Source: Cenarchaeum symbiosum A (GTDB lineage Archaea; Thermoproteota; Nitrososphaeria; Nitrososphaerales; Nitrosopumilaceae). Taken from it: a DNA stretch of 64,000 nt. Within the stretch, counting starts at the first letter, position 1. Each line of letters begins with the position of its first letter. The DNA is taken from the NCBI GenBank assembly GCA_000200715.1, contig DP000238.1:1142593-1206592 (forward strand), written 5' to 3'. Positions 25,360 to 28,160 of the stretch are shown piece after piece. The position numbers and the translations under genes are program-made. The notes beneath the pieces were generated by a model. The model had not been told where the DNA came from, did not search any database, and was given only the letters and a program-made list of their open reading frames with translations.

Positions 25360-26225
25360 GTGGATTTACCCGGCCTGCTCGCCGAGCATGCACCAGGGGC
25401 CCCCGCGGGCCTCGGCGGCTGCAGGAACAGCGGGTCGCCATACCCGTGCTGCGACCATGACGTGTACATCTTTGACGGTGCAGGGCCCGACAATATAGCG
25501 GTACACGGCAAAGAGACTGCAACCATCCACCACTGTTCGATAAAAGAGGCGGATTCATGCTCGCTGGCCCGGTATGTAGGGCTCGACATAATATCGGACC
25601 CCGAATGGGAGCTGCAGACCATGCTGGTAAACATAGGGGAGAGAAAAAATGCCATATATTCAGACTGCATGAGAAACTCGCTTGTCAACTCGTTGTTCTG
25701 CACGGCAAGGTCAAAGGACGGGCCCGGCCCGTTTGCCGCCTGCTGGGTAAAGTGCGCCGCTGTATACCTTGCCGATGCGATAATGCTGTACCATGGCATA
25801 CGCCCGAGCCCCGCGCACATGCTGCAGGACTTTCACGGAATAAAAGGGGGCAGGACAGGCTCCCTATTCTCGATAGTAAGCGAGTGCCTCGGCATGGAGA
25901 GGGCCACCCCCGTTCTATTAAACAGGATGTCAAAGTCGGCTGCCGGCTTTTCTGATCTGGCAGAGGGCAACGGCAGGTCCTCGATAATACTGCAAAGGCG
26001 GGGCACCTCACAGAGGCCTCGCTTCTAGCCGACTGCTATCTGTACCTTGCATGTTCTGTCCGGGACGGCATGGCCCGGGCGGGGGCCCTGCAGGGGCAGG
26101 ACCTATCCCACGTCCTCAGGGTGGCCATGGATATAGAGGGCGATCCCCACCTGCTCGACAGGCAGGCGAGGATGCTCGACGAGGCGGCCCGGGGGATGCT
26201 CTCAGACAGCCCAAAGGGCCCCTAA
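25360..26225 (+). CDS. hypothetical helical protein, interrupted by a frameshift
   Basis: The first frame (GTG 25360) encodes good sequence (VYIFDGAGPDNIAVHGKETA; WVKCAAVYLADAIMLYHGIR; FSIVSECLGMERATPVLLNR) and stops at 26028. From about 25990 a different frame is better: TAKAGHLTEASLLADCYLYL to MLDEAARGMLSDSPKGP, with stop at 26223-26225. One base change near 25980-25990 would join them into about 288 residues. Family not recognised; the mostly helical second half suggests a binding or HEPN-like fold but no RxxxxH motif is seen. Promoter as described for the divergent pair. Confidence 0.6.
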
Positions 26226-26228
26226 ACC

Positions 26229-26235
26229 TTTAAAA
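26229..26235 (+). promoter_or_regulatory. TATA box of the small cysteine-rich gene
   Basis: TTTAAAA lies 23-29 nt before the ATG at 26258, directly after the stop of the preceding gene, so the small gene has its own promoter. Confidence 0.65.
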
Positions 26236-26257
26236 TCAACGGCGGTGGCTTGTATTC

Positions 26258-26392
26258 ATGTCAGACGCAGCGTGCGGATGTTCTGCCCAGTCAGCTAACG
26301 GCACAGAATGTGATTGCACCATGGAGGGAGAGTGTCATTGCGATTCCACGTGTGATTGCACTCTGGACACATGCAAAAATACCACACACTAG
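26258..26392 (+). CDS. metallothionein-like cysteine-rich protein (44 aa)
   Basis: This tiny protein has nine cysteines in 44 residues, eight of them in four CxC pairs: CGC, CDC, CHC and CDC, plus a final single Cys. There is no aromatic residue, and Asp, Glu, Thr and Ser are abundant. This is the composition of metallothioneins, which bind Zn, Cu or Cd in thiolate clusters. No transmembrane part or signal peptide is seen, so it should be cytosolic. A TATA box 23-29 nt before the ATG supports real expression. It does not match by memory the bacterial SmtA pattern, so the family may be new. Function is inferred from composition. Confidence 0.7.
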   Translation: MSDAACGCSAQSANGTECDCTMEGECHCDSTCDCTLDTCKNTTH

Positions 26393-26445: not shown

Positions 26446-26622
26446 CTAGTCGTCGTCCTCGTCATCACCAGGCAGGCCCCACGACCGCACCAGCTCCTTT
26501 TGGAACTTGTCCGCCTGCTTGTCATTGAGGCTAGCCCCGCAGTTCTTGTGGGTGGGCACCACTATCATGTTCTCCAGCTTGAACTCCACCTCGTACATGT
26601 GGATCCGCGGGCAGTCGCACAC
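26446..26622 (-). CDS. small protein with Cys-His metal site (58 aa)
   Basis: The frame begins VCDCPRIHMYEVEFKLENMI and ends in an acidic tail (DDEDDD). Two cysteines and a histidine at the start (CDCPRIH) and a further NCG motif could bind a metal. GTG at 26622 lies 28 nt after a strong TATATA element on the minus strand (26645-26651), the best-placed promoter in this part. An internal ATG at residue 9 is less likely. It is divergent from the secreted-protein gene at 26691. Role unknown. Confidence 0.65.
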   Translation of the reverse strand: MCDCPRIHMYEVEFKLENMIVVPTHKNCGASLNDKQADKFQKELVRSWGLPGDDEDDD

Positions 26623-26690: not shown

Positions 26691-28160
26691 GTGAACTGGT
26701 CGATCGGCATGGTCCTTGCTGCGGGGCTGCTGGCGGCAGGGCCCGCCATACTCCAGGCGGAAGCGCAGTTCCAGAGCGGCGGGGTAGACCACCCCGGGGA
26801 CTGGCACGTGGGCGAGGGGCTCAAGCAGGGCGACCTGTTCTCGTACAGGATGTGCCACGTGGATTATAGAGAGTGCGCCGATTTTAGAATGGACATCTGG
26901 ATGGAAGGCGACGTGCAGACGGGCACAGAGACAAAGTGGAGGGCCCAGGTGGTAGTATACGATGGAAACAAGGTGATAAAGGGCAACATGGATCTGGGCA
27001 AGATAGCCCCGGAGCCGACGGGAGGAACAGTGGAGCTGGCCTCGTACAGGAGCGCCTTCAAGTCGTCTGTGGTCTGGCTCTCGGCGTTTGCCAACTCGGA
27101 CGAGCCCAAGCAGTTTGCCGCCCCGTCATGGGGCAAGATAGGCAACATAGGCGGCGAGCAGATACTCCCGCAGGAGCTCATAACCGACGGGATAGTCACG
27201 CCGGGGGGCACATTCGACGAGGTGGTCCAGGTGGGCTGGAGGACCGGCGGGTCCACCAGCAGGATATTCGTAGTCGATGAATTTCCGTTCCCGATAAGGG
27301 CCAGCACATGGACGCACGTCTCAGAAGGGATACCTCCCCAGGAGTACAAGTTTGAGCTGCTCAGCTATCAAGAGAACGTCCAGGAGAACCCGTTTGAATC
27401 CGTGCAGGCTACAGCAGACGAGCTTGCAGGCCTCGGGTGCCCAAGCCACGACAGGTTTGCCACGACGGTCAAAAAGGCGACAGTCGGATTCAAGTACCAG
27501 CTGCATGTATTCTACGGCCCGGAGTTTCCGGTCGATGGCTGCCCCATGAAATGGCAGGTAAAGTTCATCAGCAAGTTTGACGAGACAGAGTTTCTAAACC
27601 AGGTCCACTACGACCTGCTGGTCCTCAACAAAGACGGCACGGTGGCAAGGTCAGTGGCCCACGACGAGGGCAGGCAGTTCCTCTTCTCGCCATCCGGCCA
27701 GGCTCTATTCGAGATGACAGTCAAGGAGGGACCCGGCACCACAGACTATGTCGTGTATGTATACGGGCTGAGCCCTGAATTTATCGTGCCCGATGTAGAG
27801 CCCGACTGGGTGGTCGTGCCCGTCACCATATCTGCAGCCGAGGGAGATGCAGGCATGATACCGACAGTCAGGGCGGAGCCCGCCCCCGTTACAGAGATAC
27901 CCCCGTGGGTAAAGCTCTCCGCCGGATTCTGGGTCGAGGGATCCACCCCGGATGCAGAGTTTGTCACATCGATAGAGTTTCTCATAAAGGAGGGCATCAT
28001 CGTGGTCCCGTCGACCGACAGGAGCGTATACTCTGAAGCGGGCATACCGGAATGGTTCAAGGGGACGACTTCATTCTGGATAGACGGGACGAGCACGGAC
28101 GCCGAATATGCCAGCTCGATACAGTACCTGATAGAGCAGGGTGTAATTGTGCTCTCCTGA
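26691..28160 (+). CDS. secreted thaumarchaeal surface protein with C-terminal repeats (489 aa)
   Basis: The N-terminus is a signal peptide (residues 1-26, hydrophobic MVLAAGLLAAGPAILQAEA). The body is beta-rich with few recognisable motifs. The end has two copies of a short helical repeat, IPPWVKLSAGFWVEGSTPDA and IPEWFKGTTSFWIDGTSTDA, each followed by a segment like FLIKEGIIVVP. I recall this repeat from many secreted Nitrosopumilus proteins, where it may act as a cell-surface or protein-binding module. GTG start with the TATA element CTTTAAAG 23-30 nt before it. Confidence 0.8.
   Translation: MNWSIGMVLAAGLLAAGPAILQAEAQFQSGGVDHPGDWHVGEGLKQGDLFSYRMCHVDYRECADFRMDIWMEGDVQTGTETKWRAQVVVYDGNKVIKGNMDLGKIAPEPTGGTVELASYRSAFKSSVVWLSAFANSDEPKQFAAPSWGKIGNIGGEQILPQELITDGIVTPGGTFDEVVQVGWRTGGSTSRIFVVDEFPFPIRASTWTHVSEGIPPQEYKFELLSYQENVQENPFESVQATADELAGLGCPSHDRFATTVKKATVGFKYQLHVFYGPEFPVDGCPMKWQVKFISKFDETEFLNQVHYDLLVLNKDGTVARSVAHDEGRQFLFSPSGQALFEMTVKEGPGTTDYVVYVYGLSPEFIVPDVEPDWVVVPVTISAAEGDAGMIPTVRAEPAPVTEIPPWVKLSAGFWVEGSTPDAEFVTSIEFLIKEGIIVVPSTDRSVYSEAGIPEWFKGTTSFWIDGTSTDAEYASSIQYLIEQGVIVLS

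Follow-up and report, generated by a model that had tools for sequence, protein, structure and literature searches.

A conserved nine-cysteine metallothionein-like gene of the Nitrosopumilaceae and its fusion to a predicted membrane protein

Results

The nine-cysteine gene, its promoter, and its neighbors

The 64,000-nucleotide stretch of the Cenarchaeum symbiosum A genome analyzed here (the window; the genome, G000, is a single contig of 2,045,086 bases) contains a standalone nine-Cys metallothionein-like gene at positions 26258–26392 of the forward strand. It encodes 44 amino acids plus a stop codon (MSDAACGCSAQSANGTECDCTMEGECHCDSTCDCTLDTCKNTTH), and it is recognized by its orthologues and their invariant Cys residues. 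The translation bears out the 44 residues, nine Cys, and four CxC pairs reported in the first-pass annotation, placing Cys at positions 6, 8, 18, 20, 26, 28, 32, 34, and 39, as the motifs CGC, CDC, CHC, and CDC and one single Cys. Cys thus accounts for 9/44 residues (20.5%), and the net charge is −7. The amino acids F, W, and Y are all absent from the window protein, as the annotation had stated, but this does not extend to the orthologues, given that 57/59 standalone copies contain one or two aromatic residues each. Metallothioneins generally have few or no aromatic residues. The suggestion that the gene falls below the size limit of gene callers is doubtful because the ORF comprises 135 nt and the default minimum gene size of Prodigal is 90 nt.

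A BRE/TATA-like promoter (CCTAAACCTTTAAAAT; 26221–26236, forward strand) lies upstream, with the ATG 22 nt further downstream. Its box, TTTAAAAT at 26229–26236, is located 22–29 nt before the ATG; the TATA box described earlier is therefore present, at a spacing slightly different from the 23–29 nt given. A TTTAAAA-type box ending 21–23 nt before the ATG was found in 72/72 usable orthologous upstream regions, after two of 74 were left out (the window, which L001 already represents, and one region truncated by a contig end). Based on this spacing, a leaderless transcript is expected. We considered an operator overlapping the TATA box, in the form of a GTACT...AGTAC dyad of many Nitrosopumilus promoters, and rejected it because the best symmetry axis scored 0.44 compared to 0.43 for the next. 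With up to three mismatches allowed, the 23-nt promoter occurred once each in 4/6 genomes and was absent from G000 and G008. Thus, no copper regulon was seen, the promoter matching at most once per genome.

Three neighboring genes serve as synteny markers. The upstream gene (25360–26225, forward strand; about 292 amino acids in relatives) is conserved in 70/74 loci, the window included. Here it is broken across two frames, with homology at 25399–25989 and 26004–26201, which reflects either a frameshift or a sequence error; at locus L008 of a congener (G001) it runs in a single frame over the part covered. At the same locus, a long G+C-rich repetitive stretch (L008:647–1480) separates the upstream gene from the nine-Cys gene. 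A convergent gene (26446–26622, reverse strand), whose 58-amino acid product has a CxC at the N terminus and an HKNCG motif further on, lies directly downstream in 55/59 and 68/72 standalone loci. Present in 58/61 genomes of the family and 15/40 others, it is more widespread than the nine-Cys gene; its product had no Pfam or PADLOC match, and we use it to mark the syntenic locus and do not claim it as part of a mechanism. The next gene (26691–28160, forward strand), which encodes 489 amino acids and had no Pfam match, is near in 73/74 loci. The C terminus of its product, as of that of L082:1475–2947, carries two similar repeats of about 30 residues (IPxW.. to FLIKEGI). Because gene order is kept, we regard the window gene as orthologous by position to those of Nitrosopumilus, despite an amino acid identity of only about 40–50%.

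Conservation and constraint

A search with the single protein at an E value of 0.01 or better covered the genomes of 101 relatives and gave matches in 58/61 genomes of the same family, the Nitrosopumilaceae, versus 0/40 from other families of the order. All 58 matched genomes contain a standalone copy, at 59 loci in total, with two in one genome. The three family genomes without a match (G010, G020, and G046) look like assembly gaps, as the same three lack the 58-amino acid neighbor. Among 136 family genomes that are 90% or more complete, a profile of 32 sequences matched 132; the other four are assemblies broken into 130 to 350 contigs. Of 400 genomes drawn evenly across the order, 212 matched and 188 did not; among the matches listed, all were in the family. 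A scan of 397 genomes of the phylum yielded 70 matches, 69 of them in the family. The remaining one, in G681, was taken as a chance match because of its E value of 0.0034 and an internal stop. Of 136 pattern matches among named sequence records, 131 proved to encode a relative; titles of the 80 records kept include Nitrosopumilus, Nitrosopelagicus, Nitrosarchaeum, and Cenarchaeum. None of 11 pattern matches in viral_contigs was a relative. Conservation and retention of the reading frame in relatives, both proposed as tests in the first-pass annotation, were passed in these genome surveys (58/61 and 132/136 family genomes). Two metagenome-assembled genomes, L133 and L159, are titled Nitrososphaeraceae and yet contain Nitrosopumilaceae-type copies; the L159 module is identical to those of Nitrosarchaeum L156 and L158, and both titles are probably wrong.

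An alignment of 32 sequences shows no variation at any of the nine Cys or at D19, whereas His is not invariant. The spacing CxC-(9 or 10)-CxC-5-CxC-3-CxC-4-C was observed in 76/80 copies, and the other four have one extra Cys. These 80 come from 81 loci, of which L003, a third and weak match in the window's own genome, was dropped (E value 0.55, pattern absent). The median pN/pS was 0.13 in 21 pairs from seven close relatives; for 34 other sequences it was 0.26 (558 pairs with enough changes). The nine-Cys gene is under purifying selection.

An ORF encoding merely 44 amino acids invites the question of whether it is spurious. Of 29,759 ATG-initiated ORFs of 30–100 amino acids obtained by shuffling the window 60 times with dinucleotides preserved, none had nine Cys within 50 or fewer residues, and only the nine-Cys gene itself, among 310 real ORFs of the window, had four CxC motifs. 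Together with synteny, purifying selection, and promoter spacing, these results leave virtually no room for a chance ORF, a reading that conservation already refutes. The ORF is a genuine, conserved, and family-wide metallothionein-like gene of the Nitrosopumilaceae, and none of the family libraries searched (Pfam and NCBIfam) recognizes it.

Metallothionein-like properties of the protein

Metallothioneins are operationally defined in part by a Cys content of about 15–30% in CxC or CC motifs (PMC9781358). The Cys content of the window protein, with its four CxC motifs, and the median of 19% among the 59 standalone copies lie within this range; all 59 are 44–50 amino acids in length, well below the 100 residues used as an upper bound. 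The class is further characterized by thiolate clusters that hold d10 metals and, often, by expression that responds to metal. Hydrophobic segments are absent from all 59, and the median net charge is −6. Lacking such segments, the proteins would be expected to reside in the cytosol with their thiols reduced rather than disulfide-bonded. AlphaFold did not assign a confident fold to the apo chain (pLDDT 55.7, pTM 0.24), and its model has a single short C-terminal helix. This is as expected of metallothioneins, which fold upon metal binding according to PMC7558416.

No named metallothionein family was detectably homologous in Pfam, NCBIfam, or the PDB. The Pfam model PF00131 (Metallothio) gave no significant match (best E value 0.018, in 4/32 members; 0/8 on a rescan), bacterial metallothionein models of Pfam and NCBIfam matched none of the 32 members, and PDB sequences did not match a mixed profile. 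Consequently, the earlier term "metallothionein-like" holds as a description of a short, CxC-rich chain with neither a hydrophobic segment nor a confident apo fold, but not as a statement of homology.

A second form fused to a predicted membrane protein

A paralogous nine-Cys module with 49% identity forms the C terminus of a 468-amino acid protein encoded elsewhere in the same genome (L002:235–1641; genome C1:1241289–1242695), which has a signal peptide and a single transmembrane segment. This copy had escaped the first-pass annotation. Fused copies were found at 21 loci in 19 of the 61 family genomes, this one included. In 35/35 fused rows examined, with some loci represented twice, the carrier has exactly two hydrophobic segments, one N-terminal and signal-like and the other near residue 320. 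The flank following the second segment was the more positive one in all 35, and we thus predict by this hydropathy rule, which is not proof, that the nine-Cys tail faces the cytosol. Without regard to the module, the carrier is present in 58/61 family genomes and 9/40 others; G045 is without it. In family carriers lacking the module, the C terminus is often a conserved PKGW-type peptide; carrier homologues outside the family end soon after the transmembrane segment. The ectodomain had no Pfam match and no credible PDB match, and the predicted structure of the fused protein was unusable (pLDDT 32).

In a tree of 132 module sequences, obtained after removal of 28 duplicates among 160 rows, the fused modules do not form one group: the starred branches require a minimum of two changes, and nine are needed on the best tree, on few alignment columns and hence weakly. 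Eight fused modules lie inside a GDPDY-type clade with a support of 100/100, and seven of these eight retain Met at the position of the would-be standalone start codon. Fused L087 pairs with L111, the standalone copy of the same genome. Given this scatter, the retained Met, and the L087–L111 pair, there seems to have been repeated copying or gene conversion between standalone and fused genes.

These observations bear on whether the module might be a structural, zinc finger-like adaptor that holds a fixed metal and docks on a partner, with free and fused copies competing for it. Invariant non-Cys residues such as D19 count against a plain metal sponge and would suit an adaptor, as would the exchangeable use of the C-terminal tail, with a PKGW-type end in its place in other family members. 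In addition, the GDPDY-type orthologues have a partial Cys pattern in common with the zinc-binding UBR box (UBR1). This weak likeness was rejected as a relationship: it is below significance (E values 0.069 and 0.038), covers about 31 residues and five of the nine Cys, lacks the second half of the box, and was absent for the mixed profile. Moreover, four CxC motifs within 44 amino acids would be a large excess of thiol for a single structural zinc, and AlphaFold predicted no fold. We therefore consider an adaptor quite improbable.

Copper-related genes in the family

P-type ATPases (PF00122; 14/14 control genomes positive) were detected in 19/61 family genomes versus 35/40 others (Fisher P = 1.6e-8), and HMA domains (PF00403) in 9/61 versus 26/40 (Fisher P = 3.6e-7), P values that ignore kinship in comparing one family with its neighbors. 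The copper storage protein Csp (PF03860) was found in 0/61 versus 3/40 genomes, and CopD (PF05425) in 61/61 versus 22/40. Neither the window's genome nor G045 was among the matches to PF00122 or PF00403. The nine-Cys module is nearly universal in the family, irrespective of whether an HMA-bearing ATPase is kept (9/61). The ATPase contrast represents a single split in the phylogeny rather than several independent ones, and organisms that do not oxidize ammonia may account for many of the 40 outside genomes, so that a replacement of one system by another is not provable in this way.

Discussion

We propose that the nine-Cys protein is a cytosolic metal–thiolate buffer of the Nitrosopumilaceae, with Cu(I) favored and Zn(II) next, an interpretation that we consider reasonably probable. 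Its nine reduced thiols would probably coordinate d10 metal ions in a small cluster, with Cu(I) the most likely and Zn(II) a possible occupant. The protein may then buffer or store cytosolic metal in cells with a high copper use that mostly lack CopA-type export ATPases, CopZ-like HMA proteins, and Csp, and in some lineages the module would also be anchored at the cytosolic side of the membrane, where it forms the C terminus of a single-pass protein. Metal binding is likely, and copper as the chief metal is favored but unproven.

The first-pass annotation had linked the gene to copper through the ammonia-oxidizing pathway. The link is better grounded in the lack of P-type ATPases and HMA domains from most of the family, although it is from co-occurrence that we infer function. 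Published work provides further context. CopA1, CopA2, CopZ, and Csp are reported in the soil ammonia-oxidizing archaeon (AOA) Nitrososphaera viennensis (PMC7785015). N. maritimus is described as exceeding, at maximal growth, the Cu:P quotas documented for all other marine microorganisms and as being more Cu2+-tolerant than the bacterial competitor N. oceani (PMC9723733). According to the same report of 2021, genes for Cu efflux proteins are absent from the marine AOA genomes examined, for which reason the mechanism of tolerance was questioned, and the word "metallothionein" does not occur in its main text. A cytosolic thiolate buffer would answer the question, as posed in PMC9723733, of how Cu is tolerated in the absence of efflux proteins.

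A zinc or zinc/cadmium metallothionein, the daily cargo of which would be Zn(II) with the copper context incidental, is the principal alternative. The vertebrate M(II)3Cys9 beta domain has its Cys in the same order, His is present in 38/59 standalone proteins, and copper and zinc are not told apart by a Cys count alone. Nor does the PF00122 contrast exclude zinc, because P-type ATPases also export Zn. On the other hand, the low counts of CopA, CopZ, and Csp together with universal CopD in the family point to copper, and His is not invariant. On this evidence, we regard zinc as the main cargo as rather unlikely.

Alternatively, the thiols of the protein might serve to buffer nitric oxide or peroxide that arises from ammonia oxidation, and the release of metal would be a signal. 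By analogy, the yeast metallothionein Cup1 was reported to ease nitrosative stress (PMC10399457), and AOA are described as lacking catalase in PMC9723733. However, the gene was found in 0/40 genomes of other families, and the AOA-bearing ones among these should face the same stress. Such a role appears very unlikely.

Returning to a metal buffer, a more far-reaching version is that the copper economy of the Nitrosopumilaceae depends on the free and membrane-tethered proteins as two interchangeable forms of a metallothionein, in which the tethered form would catch metal at its point of entry, the membrane, and pass it to the free form, replacing CopZ and CopA. We put this forward tentatively, as more doubtful than the buffer itself, and a part of the fused form in copper entry is a bold extension. 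If true, this would be the first archaeal and the first membrane-tethered metallothionein within the literature searched.

The Nitrosopumilaceae AOA rank among the ocean's principal nitrifiers. Being near universal in precisely these archaea and probably cytosolic, the nine-thiol protein is a direct and testable candidate for resolving the puzzle of copper tolerance, and it may explain how AOA cells handle so much copper. In the open-license PMC literature, searched by titles and the beginnings of abstracts, we found no description of such a protein in these archaea.

One of the nearest known systems is the beta domain of vertebrate metallothioneins, in which nine Cys are ordered CxC, CxC, CxC, CxC, C. 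That domain (PF00131) and the archaeal protein are both small and Cys-rich with the same Cys order, but the archaeal protein has longer loops (9 or 10, 5, 3, and 4 residues), is acidic, and lacks a second domain. The resemblance is one of design, with descent not shown, and is likely to be convergent. SmtA/BmtA and the mycobacterial MymT are likewise small, prokaryotic, cytosolic, Cys-rich proteins, but belong to the other prokaryotic domain of life, and their models do not match the archaeal protein. According to PMC7558416, MymT was a formerly unannotated small ORF, with a predicted capacity of up to six Cu(I), and Csp is a folded four-helix bundle. The proposed role of the archaeal protein is similar to that of Csp, namely cytosolic Cu(I) storage through thiols; by contrast, no helix bundle is predicted for the archaeal chain, and PF03860/DUF326 matched none of the 32 nine-Cys members. 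Finally, CopA and CopZ also concern the control of cytosolic copper, in their case by means of a transporter and an HMA domain, neither of which the archaeal protein contains.
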